A stretch of 37,142 bases of DNA. Origin: a virus. The translations under genes were made by a program, and so were the position numbers. This document shows, piece after piece, positions 5,282 through 30,515 of this stretch. Below the pieces are notes generated by a model that saw only the letters and a list, made by a program, of their open reading frames with translations, was not told where the DNA came from and ran no database searches. Location of the stretch: IMG/VR virus record IMGVR_UViG_3300018892_000069, positions 1 to 37,142 of that record, one strand, 5' to 3'. Position 1 is the stretch's first letter. Each line of letters starts with the position of its first letter.

Positions 5282-5370
5282 AGGGTAGGACGGTTTTTTC
5301 AACCGGTCTTTAGAGAGTTTTTCTTGGGACTGATAGGGCAAATTCTGGGACTGTTCTGACCAATCTATTT
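5282..5370 (-). promoter_or_regulatory. Late control block A (copy of 30427-30515)
   Basis: An ungapped copy of the block at 30427-30515, with about nine differences in 89 bases by eye. Its start-proximal end carries the late core CGTCCTACC (- strand, 5284-5292). Its far end holds a fully conserved stretch (about 5340-5366) containing GGTCAGAACAGTCCCAG on the - strand. It lies between a strong terminator and the 178-residue gene, where a promoter for the tape measure unit is needed. No good host TTTG/TAnnTTTG pair is evident, so a phage activator or altered polymerase is plausible. Confidence 0.7.
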
Positions 5371-5371
5371 T

Positions 5372-5406
5372 AACAAAAATCCCCGTTTGAAACGGGGATT
5401 TTTGTT
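5372..5406. terminator. Bidirectional intrinsic terminator
   Basis: A perfect 16-base inverted repeat (AACAAAAATCCCCGTT, three-base loop, complement) with A/T tracts on both sides, so it can act in either direction. It ends the long late operon that starts at 13666 and isolates the next control block. The stop codon of the 64-residue gene lies in its right arm. Confidence 0.85.
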
Positions 5407-5599
5407 ATTGATAACCTACTCGCTTGAGTACCAAAGCGATGGCCGGATAATGGGCGCGGATAGCCGTCTGCTGGTTGTTATACATGAAGTTTTTGATACA
5501 AAACTTAGGCACATCGGCTTCCATCTCAATACCACGCCAGTTGAGTACGCGCCGGTTTTCATCCAGAAACCGGCGCAATTGGATTAGATCTTCTTCCAT
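5405..5599 (-). CDS. Hypothetical protein, 64 aa
   Basis: A small soluble protein with two likely helices and no recognisable domain. The N-terminal part (LIQLRRFLDENRRVLNW) is amphipathic. It is the last gene of the 13.7-5.4 kb late operon, with its stop codon embedded in the terminator. An 8-base stem hairpin lies just upstream. Coding status rests on position, an ATG start and protein-like composition. Confidence 0.6.
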   Translation of the reverse strand: MEEDLIQLRRFLDENRRVLNWRGIEMEADVPKFCIKNFMYNNQQTAIRAHYPAIALVLKRVGYQ

Positions 5600-5636
5600 A
5601 GTCAGAAAATAGTTTTACGCCAAGGCGTACAGGTAG

Positions 5637-5660
5637 GCAGCCCGGCTAGTGTCGGGCTGC
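5637..5660. repeat. Hairpin between two small late genes
   Basis: GCAGCCCG, an 8-base loop, then CGGGCTGC. It sits between the stop of the 68-residue gene and the start of the 64-residue gene. There is no T-run after it on the - strand, so it is more likely an mRNA structure or a weak terminator. Confidence 0.5.
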
Positions 5661-5680
5661 TGATAATATTGATTGCGGGT

Positions 5681-5887
5681 TTAGTTGAGTCCGAAGACTT
5701 TCTTCCACCAGGGGCGATTGATCTGGTTTCGGGTCATCACTACCAGTTCCCACATGGCGCGGGTCTGCTCTCTGATCTCCTTATTTTCCTGGCGCATTTC
5801 TTCTACCCCGGCCCAAGCGGCGTTAGCCAAGCGGCGCGTCTCACGGATTTCTTCGGAGATGGCATCAAATAATGGGTCTTTTTCCAT
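5681..5887 (-). CDS. Hypothetical coiled-coil protein, 68 aa
   Basis: Residues about 8-50 are an uninterrupted charged helix with heptad spacing (ISEEIRETRRLANAAW, MRQENKEIREQTRAMW). The C-terminus is aromatic and basic (RPWWKKVFGLN), which could touch a membrane surface. No family recognised. It follows the large 672-residue tail protein by 82 bases in the same operon. Confidence 0.6.
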   Translation of the reverse strand: MEKDPLFDAISEEIRETRRLANAAWAGVEEMRQENKEIREQTRAMWELVVMTRNQINRPWWKKVFGLN

Positions 5888-5969
5888 TGGTCTTCGTGTT
5901 CAGAACGCTGTCCCCCGTTTGGTTTACATATATTAATACCTTTGGGTATCAAAAGGTAACCAAATTTGG

Positions 5970-10042: not shown

Positions 10043-10045
10043 GGA

Positions 10046-10519: not shown

Positions 10520-10525
10520 AAGTGT

Positions 10526-11320: not shown

Positions 11321-11333
11321 GGGATAGATGGGC

Positions 11334-12232: not shown

Positions 12233-12686
12233 CGTTCTTTAATTTATTGGTGGAGTCATTGATTTTCGATTCGAGGAATTGGGCAATTTGTTTCGAGATT
12301 ATTTCCAGTTTGGACGCGTACCGAATAATAGATAGTAGGGTAGCGGCCAGGAGCAGAGCCATAATAGCCGGGGGCATCCAGAAAAACACCACACTATACC
12401 TCGCTACGCCAGTGGCGACGAAGAGTAATAGCACAGCGCCAAACAGGGAACTGGTGACGGTGAACACTTTTGCGCGAACCAGCCGCCAGGTGAGCTGGCT
12501 ACCTTTGTAGAACCAGTACAGCTCCAGAAAAAGGGCTATATGATAGATCATGAACAGAAACCAGACGGCTTCAGCCGGTTTCCACACGTGCCTTTCAATA
12601 AGAGTGGTAGCAGTCGTGGCAAGCCAGGCGGCGGTCAGTGCAATCTTGTCCGAATGGGTGACGATCCCTTTGATAAGTAATTTCAT
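12162..12686 (-). CDS. Phage holin-like membrane protein, 174 aa
   Basis: Four hydrophobic helices at about 14-30, 40-60, 75-95 and 98-122, with short polar loops. A charged cytoplasmic-type tail follows, rich in Asp, Asn, Thr and Pro. Size and pattern fit the holin family common in Bacteroidota phages, which makes holes in the inner membrane at lysis. It overlaps the DUF6712-like gene by ATGA and precedes two spanin-like genes. The endolysin is in another unit (29842-30372). Confidence 0.72.
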   Translation of the reverse strand: MKLLIKGIVTHSDKIALTAAWLATTATTLIERHVWKPAEAVWFLFMIYHIALFLELYWFYKGSQLTWRLVRAKVFTVTSSLFGAVLLLFVATGVARYSVVFFWMPPAIMALLLAATLLSIIRYASKLEIISKQIAQFLESKINDSTNKLKNDDFSDPTPTSPAETMEQASTIES

Positions 12687-13666
12687 ACGCGGAAAGTCGG
12701 TTGATTTGCGTTGTCGTACAGTTCGTAGCGTCGCCGGGTCTGCGACTCGAACACCGCTTTGTAATTCGCAATGGCTGTAACGTTGTCATCCAGGTATTTT
12801 TTTAGCTCGGTCTGGTAGGTCTCGGCCAGCTTCCAGGCATCCTGACGAATTGAATCTACGTCAGCCAGGTCCGCATTCAGCCGGTTGCCAGCCGCCAGCA
12901 TCTGGTTTTGCAGCTTGAACCCAAAGGCAGTAGCGACGAACTGTACCGACGGAATAGCCAGGTACAATGTCAGTTGTGCTAATGCTTTCTGGATCAAGCG
13001 GTGGAGAATGACGCGATATGCAGGCGCAGCTGTAGCTGGGGCTAACACGTGCGCTTTCATTTCTTCGAACAGGGCAGCACCCAAGGCAGGCCGAATATAC
13101 AGGTCTTCGGCCCGGGCTATGAAGGTGCGCAGTACCAGGTACACCCGCCGGCTATTGCCAATAGGCAGAAAGGCGCTCAGTTCACGGGCGTTATTGATGA
13201 ATAGTTCTCTGGACCGGGTGTAAGCCGCAGAATTTTTCCAGACGGGGTAGTCGGCCGCATTATTTTCCAGAAACTCCAGGGCACTATCCAGAAACGTGTC
13301 TGCGTTTTCGGACGTAGCGGTTACGATTTCGTTATACGTCCACTGGCGTACCGGCGTGGAATTGCCGGTATTTGTTTCCTGTATGCCTGCATTGCCAATA
13401 GCCACACTCAGGAAGGGTATCGCATCGGCCAGCGTGTAGTAAGCCAACGCCCGCTGGATGCGGTTGATTGCCAGAATAAGCGATGCGCCTGGTGTAGTCG
13501 GGCTGTTGTAGGCGCTGTTTAGCTGCTGGTAGAACTCCTGCCCGATCACCGGTATCAGGTAGCGGATTTCGGCCTGCTCGACAAAGGGCATTAGAGTAGC
13601 ATCAGACAGGTTCTTTTGGTTTCCGGCCAGGTATTTTTTTAGATCTTCTACTGATTTGAATAGCAT
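12683..13666 (-). CDS. DUF6712-like virion protein, 327 aa
   Basis: An all-helical protein starting LFKSVEDLKKYLAGN, then FVEQAEIRYLIPVIG. This resembles the Bacteroidota phage family annotated DUF6712, found among structural genes and probably involved in head completion or head-tail joining. The exact role is not established from sequence. It is the first gene of the 13.7-5.4 kb unit, starting 42 bases after the late core at 13709-13718. Confidence 0.72.
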   Translation of the reverse strand: MLFKSVEDLKKYLAGNQKNLSDATLMPFVEQAEIRYLIPVIGQEFYQQLNSAYNSPTTPGASLILAINRIQRALAYYTLADAIPFLSVAIGNAGIQETNTGNSTPVRQWTYNEIVTATSENADTFLDSALEFLENNAADYPVWKNSAAYTRSRELFINNARELSAFLPIGNSRRVYLVLRTFIARAEDLYIRPALGAALFEEMKAHVLAPATAAPAYRVILHRLIQKALAQLTLYLAIPSVQFVATAFGFKLQNQMLAAGNRLNADLADVDSIRQDAWKLAETYQTELKKYLDDNVTAIANYKAVFESQTRRRYELYDNANQPTFRV

Positions 13667-13708
13667 CTTGGTATTGTTTTTACAAAGATGCTATAAGAAA
13701 GAAAAGTG

Positions 13709-13718
13709 AGGTAGGACG
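13709..13718 (-). promoter_or_regulatory. Late core element b
   Basis: CGTCCTACC on the - strand, preceded by an AT-rich run. It lies 42 bases before the DUF6712-like ATG and just past the stop codon of the GIY-YIG gene. It heads the longest late unit (13.7-5.4 kb). One of seven copies; this one is followed by T instead of C. Confidence 0.68.
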
Positions 13719-13721: not shown

Positions 13722-14411
13722 TTAGCCCTTATCTTTCTTACTTTTATTGGGAGCACTGATTGGAATACCAGCCGCTTTCAACTTTGCGTAGTAAAGTTTG
13801 CGGGCTTCTGAAATCTTTATCCGCTGCTCGTCGGTCATTTTAATACCTTTGTTCCAAGCAACACGAGGTATGCCTGCATTCTTAAGACTTTGCAAAGTTG
13901 CTCTCAAAGCCTGGCTTTTTTTGCGTCTTGTTTCTTCGCTTTGTTTAAGCACGTGGGCTAACCCTTCGGCTTTGAGCCGGGCATAATACTCTTTTCGCTT
14001 TTGTGAGATTTTGGCTTTACGCGCTTCAGATAACGGTTTGCCCCTCAAGGCGTTTGCAATCTTTTGTTTATGTTCGCTGCTGAAAACCCGGCCTTTGGAT
14101 GCTTCGGACTTGTCGGCATTAAAAACTGCGTAACCTTTTTTGTACTGCTCGATATAAAACGCTTCTCTTTCGGCCAAAAACTCCAGCTCACAATACTCTA
14201 TCAATCCCATTTCCAAGTCATCGCTATATTGCTGATAATGGGCTAATAGGCTTTTGTTAGCGTGAATGCCTTTGCGAAGGTGACGGCAGTGGTCACGGTA
14301 TCTTTTCTGAAGTAATATGGTAGCACCAATATAGTATTTGTTCAGCCTGGGCGAACGGATAAAGTAAACTCCCGAACGTTTGTATGCTTCTTTGGGTAGC
14401 AGGTTTTTCAT
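13722..14411 (-). CDS. GIY-YIG homing endonuclease with NUMOD3 motifs, 229 aa
   Basis: The nuclease domain has GVY at 14-16, YIG at 27-29, Arg37 or Arg39 in LQKRYRDHC and Glu83 in EREAFYIEQY, so all catalytic positions are present. Two NUMOD3-type DNA-binding motifs follow (KGRVFSSEHKQKI with RGKPLSEARKAKI, and NKGIKMTDEQRIKI). It is free-standing: no intron or intein is visible around it. It sits between the portal unit and late element b, an intergenic landing site typical of phage homing genes, and may target a neighbouring locus in related phages. Confidence 0.9.
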   Translation of the reverse strand: MKNLLPKEAYKRSGVYFIRSPRLNKYYIGATILLQKRYRDHCRHLRKGIHANKSLLAHYQQYSDDLEMGLIEYCELEFLAEREAFYIEQYKKGYAVFNADKSEASKGRVFSSEHKQKIANALRGKPLSEARKAKISQKRKEYYARLKAEGLAHVLKQSEETRRKKSQALRATLQSLKNAGIPRVAWNKGIKMTDEQRIKISEARKLYYAKLKAAGIPISAPNKSKKDKG

Positions 14412-14773: not shown

Positions 14774-14918
14774 TGCTAAGTACACCAGTGGCGTATCTCG
14801 CCCGCCTTTCGGTTAGGGCACTCTTTTTCCGGGATGTTTTTGTTAGAAACGTCTAAAAATAAAAAAACCACGACCATAGAATTTTGGTGTGGCATCACTG
14901 CCACTGTTGTACTTAGCA
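14774..14918. repeat. Long inverted repeat in the leader of the 91-aa gene
   Basis: Arms at 14774-14792 and 14900-14918 pair over 19 bases with one mismatch, around a 107-base loop. They lie in the leader between a host-type promoter and the ATG at 14738. A third copy of the arm core (GTACTTAGC on the + strand) overlaps the start codon, so the leader could form alternative structures that hide or expose translation initiation. Confidence 0.6.
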
Positions 14919-14921
14919 TTG

Positions 14922-14952
14922 CAAAGATACAACACGGCCTTTTGCCATCAAA
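14922..14952 (-). promoter_or_regulatory. Bacteroidota sigma-AB type promoter
   Basis: On the - strand, TTTG (14949-14952), 19 bases, then TATCTTTG (14922-14929). This matches the Bacteroidota -33/-7 consensus TTTG-N19-TAnnTTTG. It would drive the 91-residue accessory gene independently of the late units. Confidence 0.75.
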
Positions 14953-14992: not shown

Positions 14993-16276
14993 CTAGCGGG
15001 CCGACGGATCGGATAGGTTATTGACCATTGACTTACCGGACGGATTGTCGGCAAGCGTTGTGAGTTGAATATCCACAATGCCAATGAAAATATCCCTGTC
15101 CCAGCCCATGATTTTCTTTGCAACTGTGTTAAACGGTTGAAGTAAAATCTTCCGCTTGGTGGGAGTCCTTAAGGCAATGTGCATATCATAGGATATGCGT
15201 TTCTCCGAACCGGAGCCACCCAATTTTGAGTTTTGGTCAATGCCCGCCAGGCTTGGATCAATACCGTGACCGCTGGCGTGGGCGGTATTAGCCTGCCGGT
15301 CTAGTTCGATATATGCTTCAGTATTCATCTTGTCTTCGAGAGGTTCGATTTTCCAGCCGGGAATGGGTTTTCCCATCGCGTCGGTCTGGAATTTTGAGAC
15401 GAATGCCTTGGCTACGTTTTCAACCCCGGAGAGCCATTGATTCATGTTATCAAGCAGATCCGCTTCCGCTTTTTGCTGCGCCTTGTCATCCCCAAATTGC
15501 AGAAAATAGTCGGCCGGAATCTCAATGTGGTATTTGAGGTTATAGCCATTAGCAAGCCCGCTTTTGTGGAATTTCGGTATCTCATTGGATACCTCAGTCC
15601 ATTTGCGGGTGCCGTACCAGGTGGGCAGTGAGTAGTAAGGCTGACCAGGTACCGGATCACGGCCGTGATAACAGAACTGAAAAAACCGGGTGGGTTGGGT
15701 TCTGTCCCAGGACGGGATCACCGTGGCTTCGGGTTCCTTAAAGTTTTTCCAGTCTGGGTGCAGTACGTAGTCTTCGATGCGGCCGACTGTAGGACTAATG
15801 ACTGAAGCCCGCACATCCGTACAATCAAAGCATTGGATAGCTTCGATATTAGTTGATGTACCCAGGGTGAAGACAGTGAATACATTGCTCCAGAACTCCA
15901 GGTTGTAGGCCGCCTGCATGATATAGTTTTCAGCCTCAATTTCTTCCAGCCAATCCTCGATTTCGGGCATTGCAATGGGCACGAAGGTCTCCTTGTTCTC
16001 CACGATCTGACGCCGGAACACACCCAGCCGACTGCCAATTAGGAAATCCCGTGCAGTGGTGATCAATTGTGGCTTCAGATGGTTTTCCCATATAAGCCGG
16101 AACATTTCCTGCGGCAGCAGATTGTTTTTTCCCCAAGGAGCTATTTTCAAATTACCCTTTCTGAGTTCGGTACCGCCATTAACTGTGTCCTGGAACTTGC
16201 CGCCGGTGAAGGAAACCGATGCCTGGGCATCTTTCAGGACGTAGAAGCCCTCCGATAGTCTGACTACGTTGCTCAT
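14993..16276 (-). CDS. Portal protein, 427 aa
   Basis: Forms the ring through which DNA enters and leaves the head. It has the portal pattern of Bacteroidota phages: an N-terminal segment leading to WGKNNLLPQEM, a helical wing, then a C-terminal region with ASGHGIDPSLAGI and KLGGSGSEKRISYDMHIALR, followed by a long helix. Length fits the family. It overlaps the upstream 98-residue gene by one base (TGATG) and follows the terminase genes in transcription order, interrupted by the HNH gene. Confidence 0.85.
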   Translation of the reverse strand: MSNVVRLSEGFYVLKDAQASVSFTGGKFQDTVNGGTELRKGNLKIAPWGKNNLLPQEMFRLIWENHLKPQLITTARDFLIGSRLGVFRRQIVENKETFVPIAMPEIEDWLEEIEAENYIMQAAYNLEFWSNVFTVFTLGTSTNIEAIQCFDCTDVRASVISPTVGRIEDYVLHPDWKNFKEPEATVIPSWDRTQPTRFFQFCYHGRDPVPGQPYYSLPTWYGTRKWTEVSNEIPKFHKSGLANGYNLKYHIEIPADYFLQFGDDKAQQKAEADLLDNMNQWLSGVENVAKAFVSKFQTDAMGKPIPGWKIEPLEDKMNTEAYIELDRQANTAHASGHGIDPSLAGIDQNSKLGGSGSEKRISYDMHIALRTPTKRKILLQPFNTVAKKIMGWDRDIFIGIVDIQLTTLADNPSGKSMVNNLSDPSAR

Positions 16277-16572
16277 CAGTGCTGTATTTGTACGCCGTTA
16301 TAGTGTGTAATCAGTGCTATTTTAAGGGCAAATGGCTGGTCGGTTTCCACATCATGGAGCAACAGGATACCACGCCGCTTGACATTGTACCTGAATCCGG
16401 TTGATCCAGTGGTTTTACCCAGTGCCGGGTTTGTTCCTGATTTGCGGACACGGTTTTTTTTGCCTACGGTGCCGTCCTTCTTTACGTATTGTATAGAGAA
16501 AACATGTGGCCGGTCGTTGTGAACGGCCTGGTCAATTTCTGCTAGCGCAACGTGTATTTTAATTTTGAGCAT
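16276..16572 (-). CDS. Small conserved phage protein, 98 aa
   Basis: The frame is open further upstream, but those codons overlap the HNH gene and the late element. The ATG at 16572 gives a compact protein starting MLKIKIHVALAEIDQAVH. It contains VFSIQYVKKDGTVGKKNRV and ends ALKIALITHYNGVQIQH. Small beta-rich proteins with this pattern sit between terminase and portal genes in Bacteroidota prophages; their function is not known to me. It is first in the unit with the portal and overlaps its start by one base. Confidence 0.75.
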   Translation of the reverse strand: MLKIKIHVALAEIDQAVHNDRPHVFSIQYVKKDGTVGKKNRVRKSGTNPALGKTTGSTGFRYNVKRRGILLLHDVETDQPFALKIALITHYNGVQIQH

Positions 16573-16582
16573 CTTAAATGAT

Positions 16583-16627
16583 AATTGCCATGTTTGACCT
16601 AATGATTGGAGTGCAAACATGGCAATT
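16583..16627. repeat. Leader inverted repeat with ATTGCCAT arms
   Basis: AATTGCCATGTTTG at 16583-16596 pairs perfectly with 16614-16627 around a 17-base loop. It lies in the leader between late element c and the ATG at 16572, so it would fold in the mRNA. The arms share the CAATTGCC family seen near 17.9-18.0 and 21.85 kb. Confidence 0.6.
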
Positions 16628-16639
16628 GTCAAAGCGTAA

Positions 16640-16649
16640 TGGTAGGACG
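16640..16649 (-). promoter_or_regulatory. Late core element c
   Basis: CGTCCTACC on the - strand with TTTT just before it. It lies 67 bases before the 98-residue gene and just downstream of the HNH stop codon. It heads the 98-residue/portal unit. Confidence 0.68.
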
Positions 16650-16666: not shown

Positions 16667-17791
16667 TTAACTTCCCTGGGAGCGTTTTCGGAATATTTCG
16701 GATTCGCTAACAGCGGGCGGATCAGTGATATGTTTCCAGGTGTGTCCAAGCGCAATCGCACGAACCGTACCACGGTTAATATTTAACTCGTGGGCTATCT
16801 GCGAAATGGTGCGGTGAGTAATCTGGGTGCGAATGTAACAGACTTGTTCTTCAGTGAGACTGGTAGCCAGGGTCTGATGTATCCGGGCATCTTTCATATT
16901 GTCAGTTTGGGTGCCCCATTCCAGATTAGAAAGGTGGTTATTGGCCGGATTGCCGTCCAGGTGGCGGGCCACTTCACCGGGTAAAGGTTCCCGCACAAAA
17001 GCAGAAAGTACCAAACGGCTGACACGGTATTTTTTATTATTGATGGTAACTAACGCGTAAGTGTCGGTTGCAGATAGTATTTTGAGGAGTCGATAACCGG
17101 TTTTGTTTTTTTTGACTACTTGTCCGCTGGCAGAAATGTAGTGCGAATGCATGCCTGGAATCAAGCGGTAGTCTTTAAGCGTGAAATCATGCGCTTCATC
17201 GGGTTGAACAGTTCCGTAGGCATATCTTTTGGCAGATTGGTCATAAACGTATTCAGCGCGAATCAAAGCAATAGGTTGGGGTATCGTTTGCCTGATAATG
17301 GTGTAGACTTGAGACAAGGATCGTGCATAGCGTTGTGCCAATTCTTCCACCGAATAAATTGTAGAAAGAGCTTTTATCTCTTGATGCATGAGGCGAGTTT
17401 GAAAATCAAGTCTTGGTTTTTCTTTGAGACGACGCGGTTTGAAAAGCATTGCCCGGATTTGCTTCTTTTGTTCTTTAATCAGTGAACCCAAGCGGTCAGC
17501 AGTTGCCCATGCCAAATTTGAGAGATTATTGTTAGAAGGATTACCATCCAGATGCACAGCCATTTCGTCTGGCTCCGGTAATCTTTCCCAGGCCATCAAT
17601 ACCAAACGATGTACCTGATGATGCTTTTTATTAATCTTGACAGTGCGATTGCCATGAGGATGAATGCGCTGATATAACACACGATAATTGCCATTTTTGT
17701 GTGAGTAAACTGTTCCAGAGCTACTAACATAATAATCAACAAAACCAGGAATCTCATTAATCTGATCTTTTCTCGCATTTTTTTCTGTCAT
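16667..17791 (-). CDS. Double NUMOD4-HNH homing endonuclease, 374 aa
   Basis: Two similar NUMOD4-HNH modules in one chain. The first begins INEIPGFVDYYVSSSGTVYS and carries VHLDGNPSNNNLSNLAWAT. The second begins YRLIPGMHSHYISASGQVV and carries RHLDGNPANNHLSNLEWGT. A C-terminal helix-turn-helix follows (TISQIAHELNINRGTVRAIA). HNH enzymes of this type cut DNA at homing sites. The duplicated module suggests an internal tandem duplication or a two-site binder. It is free-standing between terL and the portal unit and has its own promoter. Confidence 0.88.
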   Translation of the reverse strand: MTEKNARKDQINEIPGFVDYYVSSSGTVYSHKNGNYRVLYQRIHPHGNRTVKINKKHHQVHRLVLMAWERLPEPDEMAVHLDGNPSNNNLSNLAWATADRLGSLIKEQKKQIRAMLFKPRRLKEKPRLDFQTRLMHQEIKALSTIYSVEELAQRYARSLSQVYTIIRQTIPQPIALIRAEYVYDQSAKRYAYGTVQPDEAHDFTLKDYRLIPGMHSHYISASGQVVKKNKTGYRLLKILSATDTYALVTINNKKYRVSRLVLSAFVREPLPGEVARHLDGNPANNHLSNLEWGTQTDNMKDARIHQTLATSLTEEQVCYIRTQITHRTISQIAHELNINRGTVRAIALGHTWKHITDPPAVSESEIFRKRSQGS

Positions 17792-18050: not shown

Positions 18051-19535
18051 TTAGGAAAGGAAGGTTACCTTATAGGGTGTTGCTATGGATGCACCGGCGT
18101 GTTTGGCGAAACGTTTGAATAGTAGATAGTCTAACGCATCTGAGTAGTGGGTAGCCCGGGCCTGGTCAATGATAAGACGCTCCAGGTTTTTGTCTTTAGA
18201 CCAGTCTGGTTTGATTGGTGTGTTCAGGATGGATATAATCAGGTACTTACAAGTATTTTGGTTAATCCTGATCCTGGGTAGCCTGGCGTTATCTTCACCT
18301 AGTATTGTATTGACTACCCGATGTTTCATTTGGTGGGGTGGGTTTTGTGTTAGTATGTTTAAGGTGAATGACCAGCCTGCTTGGGTTAGCAATGCCTGTA
18401 TCTGATCATAGAATGTTTGATTAGAGCCCGCTGACCTGTTATTACCGCTACTGTCACCATAGATATTAAGGCGCTTGGTTGGGTGATCCTTATAGGTATC
18501 CAGGAGTTTTTTAGTTATTTCTTCGACCAGGCTGTTTACTGATTCCTTCACGTGCAAAGCATTTACAATACGATATTCCTGGCCATGCTCCTGACCTACC
18601 ACGCAACAGGTAAAGTGGGCGTTGAAGTCAAACGATACATCTAAGGGTTTTTTAGGGTTAACATCACTGGCCGTAACACTGGTGAGGCCGGTTTCATCGT
18701 CATGATTGTAATAATAGGTTTGCCAAGCGCAATGCTTGGATTCGCTAAAACTGGGATAAAAAGTGTTGGGTACCCGGCTCAGGCGCTGGTTCATCACTTC
18801 GACTCGGAATTCTAAATCAGTTAGTTCAGCTTTCAGGTCATTGAAGTAATCAGGAGGTAAAACATGCTGATTATCAAAGGCAGTACTTTCAACATAGAGG
18901 TACTTGGCCGGATTTTCTTTTTGGAGGCTTTCATATTTATAAATCCACTCGCCGGAAGGAAGCCAGGCGGCCGACGAATAATGGCAAAATGTCCAGTGCC
19001 AGGGAGTCGAAAACCGGTACCGGTTAGCCCGGATTGAGGGCAGCAGTATTTTATTGACCACTTCTTCTTTCATCAGCGCACTTTCATCAACGCTTCCACC
19101 GTCAAAATTTCCGCCCCGGCTCAGGTCGGCCCGGTCCATCGATAGCATTTCAATTGTGAAGCCATTGATAAAGGTGATGCAATTTTTAAAGTTGCGGGGC
19201 GGCTGAAAAGGCTTGAACCAATGGGCCGGTGGCCGGGTGCCGATAATGTAATGCCCTAATTTGCTTTCCTTATCATATTCCATCAGGCCAATATTGCTCC
19301 AGGCATCCATGGCAGCCGGCAGCGTTTTGGTAAGGATTTGGTTATAGGTTAGCCCGGCCAAAAAGCATTTACCCCTGGGCAACTGGTTAAAACGCATATA
19401 CTCCACCATACCAAGGCTCGTAGATTTGCCGGACCCACGGCCACCGACAAAACCGCGCCGTTTGGCCGTGGAATTGACAAAACGAATTTGTTTTTCGTTG
19501 GCATATACCTGCTTAGGACTCTGGCTGGTCGTCAT
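18051..19535 (-). CDS. terL: Terminase large subunit
   Basis: The packaging motor, with an ATPase and a nuclease domain. The Walker A motif GGRGSGKST is at residues 31-39, and the Walker B plus catalytic Glu is in FDGGSVDESA. The nuclease (RNase H fold) acidic residues lie in PLDVSFDFN, NIYGDSSG and HYSDALDYLL. Length (494 aa) is normal for the family. A frame extends to a TTG at 19547, but the ATG at 19535 fits better and overlaps the small subunit by 23 bases. The unit is terS-terL only. Confidence 0.93.
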   Translation of the reverse strand: MTTSQSPKQVYANEKQIRFVNSTAKRRGFVGGRGSGKSTSLGMVEYMRFNQLPRGKCFLAGLTYNQILTKTLPAAMDAWSNIGLMEYDKESKLGHYIIGTRPPAHWFKPFQPPRNFKNCITFINGFTIEMLSMDRADLSRGGNFDGGSVDESALMKEEVVNKILLPSIRANRYRFSTPWHWTFCHYSSAAWLPSGEWIYKYESLQKENPAKYLYVESTAFDNQHVLPPDYFNDLKAELTDLEFRVEVMNQRLSRVPNTFYPSFSESKHCAWQTYYYNHDDETGLTSVTASDVNPKKPLDVSFDFNAHFTCCVVGQEHGQEYRIVNALHVKESVNSLVEEITKKLLDTYKDHPTKRLNIYGDSSGNNRSAGSNQTFYDQIQALLTQAGWSFTLNILTQNPPHQMKHRVVNTILGEDNARLPRIRINQNTCKYLIISILNTPIKPDWSKDKNLERLIIDQARATHYSDALDYLLFKRFAKHAGASIATPYKVTFLS

Positions 19536-20034
19536 GGGAGATATCAATCACATTTTGGGTAAGTACTTGCGGATCGGAGTTAAAGAGCACCGGTACCGGA
19601 ATCAGGAACAGGTTCGGGTCAATGGTCTGGGCTTCGTCGCTAAATACGGCCTTGATTCTGGCCGCGTTTTCGATGGCGCGAATCATCGCGTTATGATCAC
19701 CATTTTTGCGGGCAAGCCTGGCCGCCAGCATGAAGTTTTCATACATGATACTGCGCTGAGCTTTGCGGTCATTTTCTATCACGTCGCCAAAAAGCTCCAG
19801 CGACTCACGCACCACCACGTATGCCTGGGAGGTGCTCAACTGGTATTCCTTTTCGATCAGAGCCACGACCCGGTTGCGGCTGTACATCATGCAGAGCCAC
19901 GACCAAGCTTTGCGGTATCGTTCCAGGGTTTGGCGTTCGGTGTCAGTAAGGGGTTCGGACTCGATCAGGTGTGCCCGGAACTTGTCCAGCTTGTCGCCGA
20001 TGGGTATAGTGAGAGATTTGGATTTTCTTGGCAT
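19513..20034 (-). CDS. terS: Terminase small subunit
   Basis: A 173-residue helical protein starting MPRKSKSLTIPIG, with a helix-turn-helix-like segment (VALIEKEYQLSTSQAYVVV). This is the layout of phage small terminases that recognise the packaging site. It lies directly before terL and overlaps it. The frame is open further upstream, but those codons cross a strong hairpin and a late element, so the ATG at 20034 is chosen. Confidence 0.82.
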   Translation of the reverse strand: MPRKSKSLTIPIGDKLDKFRAHLIESEPLTDTERQTLERYRKAWSWLCMMYSRNRVVALIEKEYQLSTSQAYVVVRESLELFGDVIENDRKAQRSIMYENFMLAARLARKNGDHNAMIRAIENAARIKAVFSDEAQTIDPNLFLIPVPVLFNSDPQVLTQNVIDISHDDQPES

Positions 20035-20041
20035 AAAAAAA

Positions 20042-20068
20042 GCGTTTCTGCGAAATTCGCAGAAACGC
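20042..20068 (-). terminator. Terminator-like hairpin in the terS leader
   Basis: A 12-base perfect stem (GCGTTTCTGCGA and complement, three-base loop). On the - strand it is followed by TTTTTTT and then the terS ATG. It looks like an intrinsic terminator for the accessory cassette at 20.1-21.0 kb. However, it lies downstream of late element d, so late transcripts would also have to read through it. Confidence 0.75.
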
Positions 20069-20076
20069 CGGTGGCA

Positions 20077-20086
20077 GGGTAGGACG
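20077..20086 (-). promoter_or_regulatory. Late core element d
   Basis: CGTCCTACCC on the - strand with TTTT just before it, 42 bases before the terS ATG. A terminator-like hairpin lies between it and the ATG. Confidence 0.7.
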
Positions 20087-21059: not shown

Positions 21060-21818
21060 TTAAAGCGACAGCAGCTTAATCTTTTCGTCAATGTCAGCCA
21101 TCTCTGCTTCCAGCTTAGCCAGTTTCTCGGCTTTCAACGTTGAGCCGGGGTCGGCTTCGGCTGCTTTCCTGGCTTTGCTCAGGTTCGGAGCCAGGCGCGT
21201 TCGCTGAAGCTTTAGCGAATCAAGCGAGGCTTTTGCTTCAGCTTGCTGCTGTGCTTGCTCATCGGTTTGCTCTGGCTCGCTCTGAGCTAAGTGGCTCAGT
21301 CGCTCTTTCTGCTCTGCCAATTCCCGGTACTGTTCTTCGATAGCCGTTACATGCTCAATAAGTAGCATCCGGTCAGCTACGGCCTGTGGCTCGTTGCTAT
21401 CGCCGCTGGCAACCAGCAGGTTAGACAGTTCGGCCTTGCGGGCATACAGTTCGGATTGTTTGAGCGTAATTGCCTCAATTTCCGCTAACGCTATTGTTGA
21501 ATCAGCCAAATCCACAATGGAAATATGCGGTGTATTGGGCGATGAAAGCACAACTACTTTGGCTTCACTGGGTTGGCTTTCCAGTAGCTCAGGCTGTGTA
21601 AGCAGTTTGCTCAACTCATAGGTCAGCTTTTCGCAGTTCACCTGGCTCTGCTTTTTCATCAGGGTCTGGATCAATATGCGGTTACGACAATAGCGGCTGA
21701 GCAGAGCCAGCCCACTGGCGTATTCGGCTTCTGGGTTATCGAGCCAGGCTTGTATTTCCTGGGTGGCTTGCAGGGCTGTTTCGCTCATCTGTGGGACATT
21801 TGATTCGTGGGTATCCAT
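21060..21818 (-). CDS. Coiled-coil phage protein, 252 aa
   Basis: Helical N-terminal part (EIQAWLDNPEAEYASGLALL, YCRNRILIQTLMKKQ). A charged coiled coil rich in Glu, Gln and Ala follows from about residue 125, ending KLEAEMADIDEKIKLLSL. Similar conserved proteins of unknown role follow capsid genes in Bacteroidota phages. The frame reaches 21938 but crosses a terminator and late element e, so the ATG at 21818 (MDTHESN) is chosen. It is a single-gene unit with its own late element and terminator. Confidence 0.7.
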   Translation of the reverse strand: MDTHESNVPQMSETALQATQEIQAWLDNPEAEYASGLALLSRYCRNRILIQTLMKKQSQVNCEKLTYELSKLLTQPELLESQPSEAKVVVLSSPNTPHISIVDLADSTIALAEIEAITLKQSELYARKAELSNLLVASGDSNEPQAVADRMLLIEHVTAIEEQYRELAEQKERLSHLAQSEPEQTDEQAQQQAEAKASLDSLKLQRTRLAPNLSKARKAAEADPGSTLKAEKLAKLEAEMADIDEKIKLLSL

Positions 21819-21865
21819 AGGGTGTGTGTTAAGTGAATGGCAATTGCGGGTTGAATAAGGGTAGC

Positions 21866-21885
21866 AAGTTGGCAATTGCCAGCTT
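21866..21885. repeat. GGCAATTGCC palindrome in a late leader
   Basis: A 20-base palindrome with one G-U pair, centred on GGCAATTGCC. It lies between late element e and the 252-residue gene, and is followed by a partial copy (GGCAATTGCG) at 21839-21848. It belongs to the same family as the palindromes at 17.9-18.0 kb. Confidence 0.55.
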
Positions 21886-21889: not shown

Positions 21890-21899
21890 GGGTAGGACG
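21890..21899 (-). promoter_or_regulatory. Late core element e
   Basis: CGTCCTACCC on the - strand with TTTTTT before it. It follows immediately after a terminator and lies 71 bases before the 252-residue gene. Confidence 0.7.
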
Positions 21900-22167: not shown

Positions 22168-22707
22168 TTAAGGCGTGGTCGCCGGTGGCGGAGTAACCGG
22201 CGGGGCCAGTATTGGAATTTCTCCTGTGAAGAAATACGGCTCATTAGACTGTCCCCCCGTAAAACCAACTTCACGCCCGTTTTTGTCATCGAATTTCTTT
22301 CCAGACGTATACTTACTAGTAAACATTAACCCGCGGCGGGTGTTGCCGGCGATTTTCTTTTGGCCCAACGCGTCTTCCACAATAACAACAAACTCGCTGT
22401 TGTAAGAGCTGTTAATGATCTTATCCACCCTTGGATTTGAGCGGGGAACGTAAACAGCAACACCCACTTTGCAGGCTTGGTTGCCCTGGTCACCTACGGT
22501 TTCGGAAGTGAGTTCACCCGTATCAAGCGCAAAATCCCAAACTACAAACCCTTTTCCGGTTTTGGGCGTAACAGTGGCAATGCTGTAGGAAGCTTCGACT
22601 ACGGCACTGATAGACTGTAAGTCACGTTTGGCAATGACATATAATTTATTCTGGCCACCAGGATTGGGGCCGCATTCTTCGGATATTCCGGCAACACTTA
22701 CACACAT
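22168..22707 (-). CDS. Virion protein, possible tail tube or head decoration, 179 aa
   Basis: Related to the 184-residue protein at 29096-29650. Both have ECGPNPGGQNKLYVI / ACGHNQGGIHYLRVI near the start and a YVP motif in the middle. Near the end are GKKFDDKNG / GNDYADKNG followed by a beta strand. Beta-rich, with a Pro/Thr-rich tail (ILAPPVTPPPATTP). Directly after the capsid gene, it could be the tail tube or a head protein; the sequence does not decide. Confidence 0.72.
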   Translation of the reverse strand: MCVSVAGISEECGPNPGGQNKLYVIAKRDLQSISAVVEASYSIATVTPKTGKGFVVWDFALDTGELTSETVGDQGNQACKVGVAVYVPRSNPRVDKIINSSYNSEFVVIVEDALGQKKIAGNTRRGLMFTSKYTSGKKFDDKNGREVGFTGGQSNEPYFFTGEIPILAPPVTPPPATTP

Positions 22708-22738
22708 ATTAGTAAAAATTAGCTGATTAAAGGATTAA

Positions 22739-23755: not shown

Positions 23756-23841
23756 AGCTGTAGTATTCCCCACCCCCAAGGGGAGATTTTTGAGTGAGTT
23801 AGCCCCTGTGGGGATAGGGGTTTTGGATTATTTATCGGATA

Positions 23842-23857
23842 CCTGCCTGTCGGCAGG
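23842..23857. repeat. Short hairpin after the protease gene
   Basis: CCTGCC, TGTC, GGCAGG, adjoining the protease stop codon. It is followed toward the capsid gene by C/G-rich repeats (CCCCTGTGGGG type) near 23.8 kb. Possibly processing or attenuation between protease and capsid. Confidence 0.45.
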
Positions 23858-24271
23858 CTATTTTGCTTTTGATTTTTGGGCGGCTGCCTGGCGTCTGGCG
23901 GCTTCGTCTTCCCAGCCCACTTTGACCTGGTCGGCGCTGCTCAGGCTATTTGCCTGATCTTGCTGGCGGGTATCACGCACCTGGTGCTCCTTCTGCCATC
24001 CTTCCAGGCGGGTAATAGTAGCAGTCTGGCTGTCAATGGTTGCTTGCAGAGCAGCGGCCGCCTCCTGGTGCTCTGCAGCCTGATCACTCAGTTCCGTATT
24101 CAGAGCGGTGATCTTCTCGTCACGCTCGCCCAGCTGGGCTTGCAGCGTGGCAATCTGGATGTCCTTTTCGGCCAGGGCGCTTTCTGCCTGTTGAGCCTGA
24201 ATTTCGGTCACTTCAGCTGACGCTGAAGCATCCGTTTGCCCGAACAGGGCAGATAGTTTTGGAAATATCAT
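23858..24271 (-). CDS. Possible nested scaffold protein (internal start)
   Basis: An in-frame ATG at 24271, codon 309 of the protease gene, would yield a 137-residue protein. It starts MIFPKLSALFGQTDAS and consists mostly of coiled coil. Position and composition mirror the C/Nu3 arrangement of lambda. There is no Shine-Dalgarno site, but the sequence before it is A-rich, as is usual for Bacteroidota starts. Inference only. Confidence 0.4.
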   Translation of the reverse strand: MIFPKLSALFGQTDASASAEVTEIQAQQAESALAEKDIQIATLQAQLGERDEKITALNTELSDQAAEHQEAAAALQATIDSQTATITRLEGWQKEHQVRDTRQQDQANSLSSADQVKVGWEDEAARRQAAAQKSKAK

Positions 24272-25195
24272 TTCAGTATTTGCGTTGGATTTGGGTGAAT
24301 TGCTATTGGAATTGCGCACCATTGATGCTGCAATGTTTATGGCATCCTTCAGGGTGCCTATGCTATCGGCCATACCGTACTCAATGGCCTGTCGACCGTC
24401 GTAAACTTTGGCGCTGAAAACGTTTTCTTTAGAGGAAAGTCTTTTGCCCCTGCCCTCTTTGACTGTGGCCACGAACGTATCATTGATCGAATTAAGGCGC
24501 TCCTTGAACATCTGGTAAGCTTCCGGGCTTAGGGCTTCGGAGCTATTGCCCATCACCTTGTGAACAGAGGCGTCAGCGGTGATGTATGTCACCTTAAGCC
24601 CTTCTTTTGCCAGCCAACCGCTCTCGTCCAGGTGCGCTATCAGGGTGCCTACGGAGCCGACAAACGAGGTTGTCTTAGACGACATGACAATGTGCCGGGT
24701 CTGGGAAGCTACCCAATAGCCGGCAGATGCCGTGAGCCCGTCCACGAACGTCACCACCGGCTTGCTCCCCTGCTTAACTACGTTGCCTAAATACTCGGTA
24801 CCATCCACCGATCCGCCAGGCGTGTCCATGGCCAGCACAATCGCGTCTACTTCCCTATTCTGATAGGCTTCTTCCAAAGCGGCTGCCACGCGGGCGGTAC
24901 TCGTACCGGCCTGGCAATAGCCTACCTCTTTCAGCATGGTGCCTTTGACACGGATCACCTGAACGGTAACCGGCTGGGCTCCGCCCTGGCCACCTTTGAT
25001 AGCTGACTGATATAGTGTAGACCTATAAGCAGATGTAGCTGTGACAATACCCGGCTTGGCTTGCTCTTTCTCGCCGGCAAAAAGGTCGTTAACGGCCATG
25101 CCTTCGGCAATGCGCTTTAGAATAAGCGGCTGGTAAATATTGAAATAGCGGCTATCAATGGCCCACGCGTTAACGGAAAGAAGAATGTCCAGCAT
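23858..25195 (-). CDS. S49 (SppA-like) prohead protease with scaffold-like C-terminus, 445 aa
   Basis: Residues about 75-290 are an S49 peptidase. DTPGGSVDG is at 124-132, the Ser157 nucleophile is in GLTASAGYW, and Lys213 in DASVHKVMG is the likely general base. From about residue 309 the chain is acidic coiled coil (EKDIQIATLQAQLGERDEKI and more), like capsid scaffolds. Lambda-type phages make the scaffold separately from an internal start; an in-frame ATG at 24271 (MIFPKLSALFG) is well placed for that. It would clip scaffold and capsid during head maturation. First gene of the capsid unit, 47 bases after late element f. Confidence 0.88.
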   Translation of the reverse strand: MLDILLSVNAWAIDSRYFNIYQPLILKRIAEGMAVNDLFAGEKEQAKPGIVTATSAYRSTLYQSAIKGGQGGAQPVTVQVIRVKGTMLKEVGYCQAGTSTARVAAALEEAYQNREVDAIVLAMDTPGGSVDGTEYLGNVVKQGSKPVVTFVDGLTASAGYWVASQTRHIVMSSKTTSFVGSVGTLIAHLDESGWLAKEGLKVTYITADASVHKVMGNSSEALSPEAYQMFKERLNSINDTFVATVKEGRGKRLSSKENVFSAKVYDGRQAIEYGMADSIGTLKDAINIAASMVRNSNSNSPKSNANTEMIFPKLSALFGQTDASASAEVTEIQAQQAESALAEKDIQIATLQAQLGERDEKITALNTELSDQAAEHQEAAAALQATIDSQTATITRLEGWQKEHQVRDTRQQDQANSLSSADQVKVGWEDEAARRQAAAQKSKAK

Positions 25196-25239
25196 TTGGC
25201 TACAGTTTTACGGTAGCAAAAATGCTGGACAAATATGCG

Positions 25240-25743
25240 TTAGGGTAGGACGGATTTTTGGGGTTGTTGCTGCTCCCAGTACCGGCTCTGTGCCTGGTGT
25301 ACAAATTCGGACGGCAGGATACTATTCCACCCCGGCAACTGGTGGACAAGGGCAGCAAATTCAAAACAGTACAGATGATCAGCCGCGCCGGGACCTGTCC
25401 GGCCGATCCATTTCCTGAATACTATTTTCCAGATACAGTAGAATAGGAACGAACGGCGGTCATACCGTTTGCCGATGTGAAGGCCAATCAATCCCGGATC
25501 ACACCGGAGCGGGATGATCCATATATGGCGATTGGGCCACCGCTGTTTCCATATTTCGTAATTAGATGGGTAAACGCCAATGCCGCGTGCTTCTACGATC
25601 ATGCGTCCAGCTGGTGATTCCCACACCAGGGCGCAGTGGTGCCACTTGCCGACTACCAGGCGCATAATAGCATAGAGCAAGCTGCTGAAAGGATACCGCC
25701 AGTTCCAGGGATTAGAAACAAGTATTATGTTTCCGGTTCTCAT
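25240..25743 (-). CDS. Permuted papain-like (YiiX/NlpC-P60-type) protein, 167 aa
   Basis: The order of residues fits a circularly permuted NlpC/P60 fold. A His near the start is in KWHHCALVWES, and IVEARGIGVYPSNYE follows, as in YiiX-like proteins. Then comes a helix with YDRRSFLFYCIWK, and a late Cys in HLYCFEFAALVHQL could be the nucleophile. Such proteins cut peptides or amides, including cell-wall peptides; here it may help at the tail tip or in lysis. Family assignment is tentative. It is the last gene of the unit starting at 30372, with its stop three bases from late element f. Confidence 0.65.
   Translation of the reverse strand: MRTGNIILVSNPWNWRYPFSSLLYAIMRLVVGKWHHCALVWESPAGRMIVEARGIGVYPSNYEIWKQRWPNRHIWIIPLRCDPGLIGLHIGKRYDRRSFLFYCIWKIVFRKWIGRTGPGAADHLYCFEFAALVHQLPGWNSILPSEFVHQAQSRYWEQQQPQKSVLP
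25243..25252 (-). promoter_or_regulatory. Late core element f
   Basis: CGTCCTACCC on the - strand, preceded by AAAAATC. It lies 47 bases before the protease ATG and heads the protease/capsid unit. Confidence 0.7.
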
Positions 25744-26228: not shown

Positions 26229-26251
26229 TGGGTTACATTTAAAGGTTTCGA

Positions 26252-27565
26252 TTAAGACATGTTCCACCCGTATTGGTTGTTAAGAACCCATCGCATCTCT
26301 TGGCTACTGGCCGGGGTACCGTTACTGGAGCCAGCTACGTAACCGGCTGGCTGCTGATAAGTGCCTGTCGCCGTTGGGTTTCCTTCTCCGGAAATAGTGC
26401 AGGTTACATTTCGCCAAATGTTATTGTTTCCCCCTGGTGTCATTGAAGCATTGGCAACTACCAGATTATAATAGTCAGCAATGTGCTGATCAAGCCGGGC
26501 TGGCTGACCTGCGAACCGGCCTTGTAGCTCTATGTTTTTCAACTTGGTCAGATTTTGCCAGCCAGCAGGTAATGCACCTGTAGCTAAAACTGCCGTAGAT
26601 AATCCTTGCCCGCGTGCTGAGTATTGCAGGTTGACCAGACCAGTCATCAGTTCGATATTAACCAGGCTGGTTACAGCACATTGACGTATTTCCAGAGTTT
26701 GAATACTAGTATTATTTGCTAAATTTAAGGGTGCTTGACTACCTATAATTACTGGATTTGCACTTATAAGTACTTCAGCCCCTAAGCGAATTGTTTTTAA
26801 GGGTAAACTAGAAAAGTTACTAGGAAATGTTACTGTTCCTGAAGCGCTACGCATATCTAATGATGTAAGCCCAGGAAATATAGTTACAAAACTACTTGGT
26901 AGTGCTCCTGCCCATCCTCTTAGATTCAGTGTACGCATAGTTGGCATAGGTGCTGCGGCGGCTGGTAAACTAGCCCATTGTACACTTAGAGTAGCTAATT
27001 TTGGCATTTGAAAAAATGTAGTACCAAATTGTGCTGTCGGGATATTATTACTAGTTAAAGTAAGTGTAAGTAATTCTTTAAATCTATCCCACGTATCAGG
27101 TAATGTAGTTATCGAACATGATCTAAGATCAAGTGACTCTAATTTTGGCATATTTGATAACTCTGGCGGTAAAAAACCTAAAGAGTTAAAGGGTAATCCT
27201 AACGAAGTTAAATTTACTAAATCATTAAAACCAACCGGCAACCTTCCATTTATAACACCTTGCCCAAAATGAATACTGGAAATGCTAAAGCTATTACCAA
27301 AGGAAATAATCATTCTTCTTTGTGTATTATCAGGATATGTTTTATGATTGAAGAGATTAAAGCTTGTCCCAGTTAATAAACTACGTGTTCCATCCCCCCA
27401 CTGAATCACAAATGTTTGTGAAACAGATGAAGTAATAGTGGTTGATCTACCTCCATTATCTCCACCAAACCGATTAGCTCCTTGTGAAAATTGTGGTGTA
27501 AATAGAAAATCTAACGTAGGTGTACGAGCTCCTTTGACACCAATCAAATTATAAGTTCCATTCAT
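26252..27565 (-). CDS. Leucine-rich-repeat protein in the tail-fibre position, 437 aa
   Basis: Residues about 110-345 form LRR units with spacing LTSLGLPFNSLGFLPPEL and LESLDLRSCSITTLPDTW, continuing with variable repeats. The N-terminus has FVIQWGDGT, a PKD-like or beta motif. The C-terminus has a Gly/Thr-rich stretch and WVLNNQYGWNMS. LRRs bind proteins or glycans, so this may recognise the host surface. The codons are clearly more AT-rich than in the neighbouring genes, suggesting acquisition. It sits between the fibre and a small tail protein, in the same unit. Confidence 0.78.
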   Translation of the reverse strand: MNGTYNLIGVKGARTPTLDFLFTPQFSQGANRFGGDNGGRSTTITSSVSQTFVIQWGDGTRSLLTGTSFNLFNHKTYPDNTQRRMIISFGNSFSISSIHFGQGVINGRLPVGFNDLVNLTSLGLPFNSLGFLPPELSNMPKLESLDLRSCSITTLPDTWDRFKELLTLTLTSNNIPTAQFGTTFFQMPKLATLSVQWASLPAAAAPMPTMRTLNLRGWAGALPSSFVTIFPGLTSLDMRSASGTVTFPSNFSSLPLKTIRLGAEVLISANPVIIGSQAPLNLANNTSIQTLEIRQCAVTSLVNIELMTGLVNLQYSARGQGLSTAVLATGALPAGWQNLTKLKNIELQGRFAGQPARLDQHIADYYNLVVANASMTPGGNNNIWRNVTCTISGEGNPTATGTYQQPAGYVAGSSNGTPASSQEMRWVLNNQYGWNMS

Positions 27566-27567
27566 AG

Positions 27568-29091: not shown

Positions 29092-29095
29092 ACTA

Positions 29096-29650
29096 TTATA
29101 GTTGAGAGCGTAGGAAGCCAAAGGAGAAACCGTTACTAAACACCTTCCTAAGTGGCGGCGTGGCTCCTTCGTACATTAGATAGAAATAAGCTTTATGGCT
29201 CGTTTCAGTAGAAAATTTCAGCTTGTAACCATTTTTGTCCGCGTAATCATTCCCAGTGTCCAAGTCAGATGAGAACGCCAGGGGAGCATCCAGGGAGCCT
29301 ACCAACTTAGCCTGATTATTGCCGTCCACATATAAACAAACGCAACGCACACCCGTGAGCTGGGCAACGGCAAAAGCCAGATCAGGTGAGTCTTTCGGGA
29401 CGTAGATTTGAATCTGCGGTCGGAAAAACTCACCATTATTGTCTTCATTCATAGCTTCGGTAAAGCTGCCGGACGTAAACCAGATATCAGCGTACAGCGC
29501 CTGATCGCGGAGCACCAGCGGAAGGGGAATTTTGTGCTCAACCGGTTCGGGAATGGAAACAACATTGCGCACAGGAATTACACGGAGGTAGTGAATACCT
29601 CCCTGGTTGTGCCCACAGGCCGGTGGCAGATCCTTCAGCGTTATACTCAT
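29096..29650 (-). CDS. Virion protein paralogous to 22168-22707, 184 aa
   Basis: Same layout as the post-capsid protein 6.4 kb away: CGxNxGG near the start, YVP in the middle, DKNGYKLKF near the end. Overall identity is low, so the duplication is old. Beta-rich. Being next to the fibre, it may be a tail-tip or fibre-base version of the same fold. Confidence 0.68.
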   Translation of the reverse strand: MSITLKDLPPACGHNQGGIHYLRVIPVRNVVSIPEPVEHKIPLPLVLRDQALYADIWFTSGSFTEAMNEDNNGEFFRPQIQIYVPKDSPDLAFAVAQLTGVRCVCLYVDGNNQAKLVGSLDAPLAFSSDLDTGNDYADKNGYKLKFSTETSHKAYFYLMYEGATPPLRKVFSNGFSFGFLRSQL

Positions 29651-29838
29651 TTTTTCCGAAACAGCTTAAGAATCAGAAAAGGTGGCCATCCTACCCAGAC
29701 CAGCAACACGGCCAGAAAAAACACGTAGATCACCTGGTGCTTGCGCGGCGCACCGTACAGGCTGTTGGTAAAAATAGTATTCAGCTGAGTGCAGACGAAG
29801 ACAAACCCGGCCAGCAGATATAGCAGAAAGTAGATCAT
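29647..29838 (-). CDS. Small membrane protein, 63 aa
   Basis: Two hydrophobic helices at about 2-20 and 36-58 with a short basic loop and a basic tail (KLFRKK). It lies between the endolysin and a virion protein gene, overlapping the latter by ATGA. It could be a second holin, an antiholin or a pinholin partner for the adjacent endolysin. Confidence 0.65.
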   Translation of the reverse strand: MIYFLLYLLAGFVFVCTQLNTIFTNSLYGAPRKHQVIYVFFLAVLLVWVGWPPFLILKLFRKK

Positions 29839-29841
29839 AAC

Positions 29842-30372
29842 TCAGGAATTTTGCCTGTGAAGGATAGCTGTTTCGATCATCCGGGCTACACTTTTCAGCG
29901 TCTTGGCGTAATCAGGAGCAGTCGCATAGCCGGCCTTGGCAATAGCGTCTATAAACAAATCCGGATTGCCTTTGACCAGTAAAGCCGCCGCATAGCGCTT
30001 GTTTTTAAAGAAAAACTGCGCATGATCAGTAAAGCAGGCTTCAGGAGTAGTATACTTCCTAAAGTAGTCCTTCACCACGTACTTGTAGAGCTTCTTTGTC
30101 TTATCCCAGGTAACAGAGATGACCTGCGGAAACTTAGCCTTGTTAGTGGCCAGGTACTCGGTAGTGGTGAGCAGCTGCTCGTTGCCGTTGATGCCGTCCG
30201 TGTCTTTCACGCCGAAGAACATGTGTCCGGGTGCGCTCTTTCCCCAGGCCGATTCTACCGCAGCCTGAGCGAGTATAGCTACAGCACTGATTCCTGTTTT
30301 TTCCTGAGTCTGTAGCGCAAAGTGGTAAAACTTGTCTACAAACGCTTTTGCTACTGGATTTACCTTAGACAT
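29842..30372 (-). CDS. GH73 glucosaminidase endolysin, 176 aa
   Basis: FlgJ/LytG-like N-acetylglucosaminidase that cuts cell-wall glycan. The catalytic Glu is E40 in AILAQAAVESAWGKSAPG, followed by MFFGVK. The later KYVVKDYFRKYTTPEACFTD and the closing GYATAPDYAKTLKSV segment are family hallmarks. There is no signal peptide, so it needs the holin to reach the wall. First gene of its unit, 55 bases after late element g. Confidence 0.88.
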   Translation of the reverse strand: MSKVNPVAKAFVDKFYHFALQTQEKTGISAVAILAQAAVESAWGKSAPGHMFFGVKDTDGINGNEQLLTTTEYLATNKAKFPQVISVTWDKTKKLYKYVVKDYFRKYTTPEACFTDHAQFFFKNKRYAAALLVKGNPDLFIDAIAKAGYATAPDYAKTLKSVARMIETAILHRQNS

Positions 30373-30426
30373 AGTGTATATATATTAGTTGAACTATGGC
30401 ACGAAGGTATGCAGCAGTTAAGCAGT

Positions 30427-30515
30427 AGGGTAGGACGGTTTTTTTAACTGGTTTTTACAGGGTTTTTCTTAGGACTAATAAGGCAAATTCTGGGACTGTT
30501 CTGACCAATTTATTT
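30427..30515 (-). promoter_or_regulatory. Late control block B with core element g
   Basis: About 90% identical, without gaps, to block A at 5282-5370. The core CGTCCTACCC (- strand) is at 30428-30437, 55 bases before the endolysin ATG. The far end abuts the stop of the 157-residue early gene. Conservation outside coding sequence at two loci, both before late units, points to a strong phage late promoter plus activator site. Confidence 0.72.

Follow-up and report, generated by a model that had tools for sequence, protein, structure and literature searches.

A repeated 9-base element as the probable upstream half of a late-gene promoter common to many Bacteroidota viruses

The late genes of a 37,142-bp virus record, analysed here over its entire length (the window), are preceded in seven places by one 9-base element that very likely represents the upstream half of a late-gene promoter common, with variant words, to many Bacteroidota viruses. 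The reading favoured here, to which the sequence lends a probability of about three in four, is an activator-dependent two-part late promoter in which the element replaces the -33 box and would be read by a 157-aa phage protein, while hairpins at the start site would insulate the transcription units. It also seems reasonably probable that these features belong to a new late-transcription system across temperate siphophages of Bacteroidota (Duneviridae, Helgolandviridae, Cytophagales phages and gut prophages), in which a fast-diverging activator family and the -40/-32 box co-evolve into a lineage-specific late-promoter code and units are insulated by start-site hairpins or leaderless starts.

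Architecture of the seven window sites

Because nearly all genes lie on the - strand, the element, GGTAGGACG on the + strand, reads CGTCCTACC ahead of the genes. All seven copies reported in an earlier note were recovered at the same coordinates and in one orientation (Table 1), and the record holds no eighth; shuffled sequence yields an expectation of 0.16 copies, and no shuffle reached seven. The statement in that note that every copy lies between genes or just past a stop does not extend to the copy at 25244, which falls inside the last codons of a 167-aa ORF (25240-25743). When trained solely on other phages, a matrix picks out precisely these seven sites in the window, with scores of 23.7-30.3, the next score on the window coding strand being 5.3 and the maximum on the other strand 12.8. 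Since about 80 bp of upstream DNA are similar between the copies at 5284 and 30429, these two are not fully independent. The near-identical stretches (5284-5370 and 30429-30520) stop just past the element, and one unit boundary seems to have been duplicated.

Alignment of the seven copies reveals a second box: counted from C1, all seven have A at +30 and TT at +33/+34, and five have G at 36. The AnnTT word occupies a single shared offset in 7/7 copies and any other offset in at most one, the chance of which is about 8e-13 per offset. Judged from its letters, this box, nAnnTT(T)G, is the Bacteroidota -7 promoter element. In Flavobacterium johnsoniae, that element comprises T-12, A-11, T-8, T-7, T-6 and G-5 and is accompanied by TTTG at -33 (PMC6847099). 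By the same numbering, the window box matches the Bacteroidota -7 consensus TANNTTTG from T-12 to G-5, with A-11, T-8 and T-7 present in 7/7 sites and G-5 in 5/7; T-12 is poorly conserved, being weak in the window and more regular in relatives. TTTG is absent near -33 from all seven window sites, where CGTCCTACC instead fills -40 to -32, a placement that follows from the one fixed distance to the -7 box. Each window site accordingly joins a phage box to a host-type downstream box at fixed spacing, and, given this fixed promoter register, chance, packaging and other DNA-site roles were set aside.

The element had been described as unlike the Bacteroidota promoter, which is correct for the 9-mer itself, as it takes the place of the -33 box, but not for the whole site, which carries a host-type -7 element at host spacing. 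The earlier description of the sites was likewise accurate for the word, and overlooked the second box and the flanking inverted repeats; it also named no regulator. There is strong support for its proposal that a phage-specific late promoter or activator element groups seven units into one regulon.

As to the genes that follow, their assignment to late units holds for DUF6712, S49 protease, glucosaminidase, terminase, tape measure and portal, whereas "TerS" and "178-aa" are named by position alone. Relatives of the window portal include portals of Duneviridae phages, and TerL used as a single-sequence query returned no relatives among the viral contigs. Several neighbouring genes were observed in passing. 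Homing endonuclease genes of the GIY-YIG (13725-14411) and HNH (16670-17791) types lie directly upstream of copies 6 and 5, respectively, at the 3' end of the preceding units. A 437-aa leucine-rich-repeat protein (LRR_8; 26255-27565), an odd cargo for a phage, has its gene between those of the endolysin and the protease. A paralogous pair, 22171-22707 (179 aa) in the 22-kb gene cluster and 29099-29650 (184 aa) beside the endolysin, belongs to a family that is duplicated in relatives as well.

Table 1. Positions of the late-promoter sites, downstream units, start-site hairpins and candidate activator in the window; +1 positions are predicted, and z and MFE refer to the read-through RNA unless stated otherwise.
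Feature	Position	Strand	Remarks
Candidate activator, 157-aa protein	30526-30996	-	last gene before the first late promoter; 86 bp to the site
Copy 1, CGTCCTACC	30429..30437	-	-7 box TACCTTCG 30402-30409; +1 30397
Unit 1, glucosaminidase-type endolysin	29845-30372	-	putatively driven by copy 1
Copy 2, CGTCCTACC	25244..25252	-	-7 box CATTTTTG 25217-25224; +1 25212
Hairpin 2	25186..25231	-	covers -7 box and protease start codon; MFE -24.7, z -6.9; from +1, z +0.3
Unit 2, S49 protease	23861-25195	-	putatively driven by copy 2
Copy 3, CGTCCTACC	21891..21899	-	-7 box CAACTTGC 21864-21871; +1 21859; directly past a terminator T-run
Hairpin 3	21838..21881	-	z -2.7; from +1, z +0.1
Unit 3, 252-aa gene	21063-21818	-	downstream of copy 3
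Copy 4, CGTCCTACC	20078..20086	-	-7 box GAATTTCG 20051-20058; +1 20046
Hairpin 4	20041..20069	-	terminator-like; MFE -20.9, z -5.0; from +1, z +0.3
Unit 4, terS-position gene and terL	ATG at 20034; terL 18054-19547	-	downstream of copy 4
Copy 5, CGTCCTACC	16641..16649	-	-7 box CATGTTTG 16614-16621; +1 16609
Hairpin 5	16579..16631	-	z -4.8; from +1, z +0.5
Unit 5, 98-aa gene and portal	16279-16572; portal 14996-16276	-	downstream of copy 5
Copy 6, CGTCCTACC	13710..13718	-	-7 box CATCTTTG 13683-13690; +1 13678
Hairpin 6	13660..13694	-	covers -7 box and start codon; z -6.0; from +1, z +0.2
Unit 6, DUF6712 gene	12686-13666	-	downstream of copy 6
Copy 7, CGTCCTACC	5284..5292	-	-7 box GAACTTTC 5257-5264; +1 5252
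Hairpin 7	5246..5272	-	covers -7 box and start codon; z -2.4
Unit 7, 178-aa gene and tape measure	4719-5252; tape measure 1456-4707	-	downstream of copy 7

Related phages and variant upstream words

Among related phages and prophages, where the earlier note had suggested looking, about 20 carry the composite promoter in front of late genes. Scanning viral contigs with two patterns gave many isolated copies attributable to chance, along with a few records in which several copies share a strand; records with a single CGTCCTACC copy are mostly chance matches and were left out as support. Of 50 records with at least one CGTCCTACC, five carry more than two copies (four each in G001, G003 and G004, three each in G002 and G005), the other 45 carrying two at most. 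These five have most morphogenesis genes in common with the window. Their copies stand ahead of genes, with TAGCTTTG, TACCTTTC, TAAGTTTG or similar boxes placed at the window spacing; these boxes are nearer to canonical TAnnTTTG than those of the window. A homolog of the 157-aa protein is encoded in four of the five records with at least three CGTCCTACC copies and in none of the 45 others (Fisher p 2e-5); the exception, G004, possesses four exact copies and no detectable homolog, and seems to be missing part of its early end. Pontibacter and Spirosoma are the hosts that could be named, and a profile search detected the protein family in 53 of 390 Cytophagales genomes.

In phages with close homologs of the 157-aa protein, which carry CGTCCTA[C/T], the combination of GTCCTA[C/T] and a -7 box occurs 60 times in the forward (coding-strand) direction and never in reverse, a count that includes one prophage twice, as G235 repeats the prophage of G003. 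Phages with distant homologs lack the GTCCTA[C/T] word and have others in its place (TGTCCTTTT, TGTCTTAAA and TGTCACAA). A de novo search for repeated words in the -7 register retrieved five copies of TGTCCTTTT in G355 and five to six of GTCCTTTTT in G388, both at the same offset. Cellulophaga phage Ingeline_1 likewise has five TGTCCTTTT copies at that offset, which stand ahead of late genes that include those for portal, tape measure and protease, and a gut phage has three copies of TGTCCTTTA. In Flavobacterium phage 6H, four copies of TGTCTTAAA are found, with the -7 box one base closer in three of them, and in Flavobacterium phage laban6-1 all five copies of TGTCACAA have the -7 box at the same offset and precede annotated genes starting at 32685 (holin), 30945 (protease), 26905, 19137 and 10070 (tape measure). 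Polaribacter phage Leef_1 also carries TGTCCTTTT. Profile searches gave weak to moderate homologs of the 157-aa protein in Leef_1 (E 1.7e-15), laban6-1 (3e-8), 6H (2.5e-6), the gut phage (5e-6) and Ingeline_1 (1.3e-3), the homology of laban6-1, 6H and Ingeline_1 being weak (E 3e-8 to 1e-3) and drawn from profile searches of a few ORFs. The corresponding proteins are gp42 in laban6-1 and gp41 in Ingeline_1. As a separate observation, L349 (MZ447863, Microcystis phage Mea-Yong924-1) has a portal, sites of the TGTCCTTTT type and a weak homolog of the candidate activator, which suggest that this phage, catalogued under Microcystis, may really be a Bacteroidota phage.

Hairpins across the start site

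For 60 sites, RNA beginning where the 9-mer ends and reaching 15 bases beyond the ATG was folded and compared with dinucleotide shuffles. In this set, which comes from related phages that are not independent and was partly selected by presence of the box (the seven window copies and 74 CGTCCTAY copies are free of that selection), read-through RNA has a mean z of -2.5, with 60% of sites at p<=0.05, whereas the same RNAs begun at +1 have a mean z of +0.2, with 1.7% at p<=0.05. Base pairs crossing +1 number 10.8 compared with 7.8 in shuffles (p 1e-5). Six of the seven window copies show a significant read-through hairpin; the copy at 30429 (z -0.5) belongs to the approximately 40% of the 60 sites without one. 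What recurs between sites is the structure and not the sequence of the arms, which is why a shared sequence-specific DNA palindrome was dropped as a candidate. In many phages (the window, G001, G002, G058 and G291), the hairpin that accompanies the terminase site resembles a terminator: the -7 box forms its tip, and a T-run precedes the ATG. In window copy 4, T7 and the ATG follow the hairpin. At non-terminase sites, the start codon is held in the 3' arm.

It is plausible, from these modelled folds, that the hairpin silences read-through RNA and spares promoter-initiated RNA. Its 5' arm consists of promoter DNA and its 3' arm, carrying a T-run or the start codon, of the mRNA start, so RNA arriving from an upstream unit would form the hairpin and be terminated or left untranslated, while RNA initiated at the promoter would lack the 5' arm and remain free. 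In phage T4, hairpins cover the start region of e, soc, 49 and I-TevI, and the late promoters of gene e lie in the 5' strand of its hairpin, which blocks read-through translation (PMC3014915). The folding behaviour of gene e, in which read-through RNA folds over the start region and promoter-derived RNA does not, is reproduced in silico at most of the sites studied here. The present phages differ from T4 in that most late units carry such a hairpin, terminator versions are included and the hosts lack Shine-Dalgarno sequences. Flavobacterium lacks them and tunes translation through structure close to the start codon (PMC6847099).

The hairpins might alternatively be mere terminators of the preceding units that overlap compact promoters, with no translation-blocking role, a reading that deserves serious attention but is the less probable one. 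The T-runs before the ATG at several sites (20078 in the window; G001, G002, G058 and G291) are consistent with it, but 31 of the 60 sites, by a loose count, have a 3' arm that contains the start codon and no T-run, and the site at 21891 already possesses a separate upstream terminator. Termination and a block to translation can, moreover, coexist.

Candidate reader of the upstream box and comparison with known systems

The promoter layout proposed here is [C/T]GTC-nnnnn (-40 to -32), N19 and tAnnTTTG (-12 to -5). Box and spacing suggest that host RNA polymerase carrying the housekeeping sigma factor of Bacteroidota would read the -7 element, whereas a phage activator sitting on the 9-mer, most probably the 157-aa protein, would stand in for the -33 contact. 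As this activator accumulated, the seven units would fire together, namely lysis, protease/capsid, the 252-aa gene, terminase, portal, DUF6712 and tape measure.

That the 157-aa protein reads the 9-mer is likely, and the strongest computational argument for its family is that word and protein change together at one promoter position. Among families present in five or six of six compared phages, it is the only one that is not recognisably structural, paralogous or antisense. The site commonly follows directly after the regulator gene (10500 in laban; 86 bp away in the window), one such site lies 100-200 bp past the gene in most of the phages, and the homolog gene of laban6-1 directly precedes its first site. 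As an observation beside these, two weaker element-like sites lie side by side in G001 (33022 and 33132; scores 13.9 and 17.2), where the regulator gene ends, and may be autoregulatory or the first late promoter.

The protein belongs to no Pfam, PHROG or NCBIfam family. In its AlphaFold2 model (pLDDT 86.5), three helices make up a C-terminal part whose alignment to helix-turn-helix domains (TnpE, MuA, BlaI, MntR, PadR and Noc; Z up to 4.8) is weak. A fold search of the PDB with this model produced no match at E <= 0.001, and the sole good viral fold match is an uncharacterised protein of Leef_1 (E 1.9e-5, TM 0.71). The family has no Pfam hit, and MotA is not among the fold matches listed, though the protein may still be MotA-like. 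No sigma domain was detected in the family, the sole sigma-r4-like match in the scanned genes lying within an HNH endonuclease.

It is unlikely that the 9-mer is read by a different factor of phage or host origin, an alternative or ECF sigma factor for example, and that the 157-aa family only travels with the sites. The assignment of the 157-aa protein as putative binder draws on covariation and linkage, and the G004 fragment has sites and no detectable homolog, as such a factor would allow; yet the comparison of six phages turned up neither a sigma factor nor any further regulator family in common, the word shifts with divergence of the 157-aa family across hosts, and the 157-aa gene adjoins the first late promoter in most phages.

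Start sites bear on the position of the element relative to the RNA. With +1 placed by the published Flavobacterium johnsoniae numbering and ATG counted for ORFs of at least 40 codons, an ATG falls exactly at the predicted +1 in 20 of 91 sites (8/60 in the close family and 12/31 among distant ones), far above neighbouring offsets; in window copy 7, this +1 coincides with the A of the ATG. The mRNAs from such sites would be leaderless, which supports the promoter register. An RNA leader, nut/qut-like antitermination or translation signal, as the earlier note had also entertained, could account for an element before every late unit with hairpins nearby, but is very improbable because the element lies at -40 to -32 from the predicted +1 with a promoter box at fixed spacing, is placed outside the mRNA by the ATG at +1 in many related sites, and is followed by RNA that is unstructured when begun at +1.

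The activator-dependent promoter favoured here has a partial counterpart in phage T4, whose middle promoters combine a MotA box with AsiA in sigma appropriation. There, too, the box of a phage factor occupies the place of the host -35 element and a host-type downstream box is kept (PMC6755090). The present system differs in that it serves late rather than middle genes, would use a seemingly unrelated, uncharacterised protein and operates in a different host phylum; no AsiA-like partner was identified in it. A search of open-access literature by sequence and topic found no account of how these Bacteroidota phages transcribe their late genes. If the reading is right, it provides a predictive promoter signature together with a candidate activator family absent from Pfam, PHROG and NCBIfam, a set of orthogonal promoters and activators usable in Bacteroidota genetics, and a case in which the T4 trick of hiding a late promoter in a translation-blocking hairpin is deployed across a whole late regulon. 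Since variant sites are present in the cultured phages Ingeline_1, laban6-1, 6H and Leef_1, the system is open to direct testing; in Leef_1, the profile homolog of the 157-aa protein comes from the gp39 region and has no recorded function, and the TGTCCTTTT element differs from that of the window.

Compared with the Bacteroidota housekeeping promoter (sigma-ABfr, TTTG/TAnnTTTG), the phage late site has the same -7 box and the same spacing from upstream element to box, but a 9-base phage word in place of TTTG at -33 and a relaxed T-12. The window also contains a canonical host promoter, TTTG-N19-TATCTTTG, which lies in the accessory region (14893-14952, - strand), unlike the promoters of the late units, and precedes the accessory 91-aa gene and the GIY-YIG gene.
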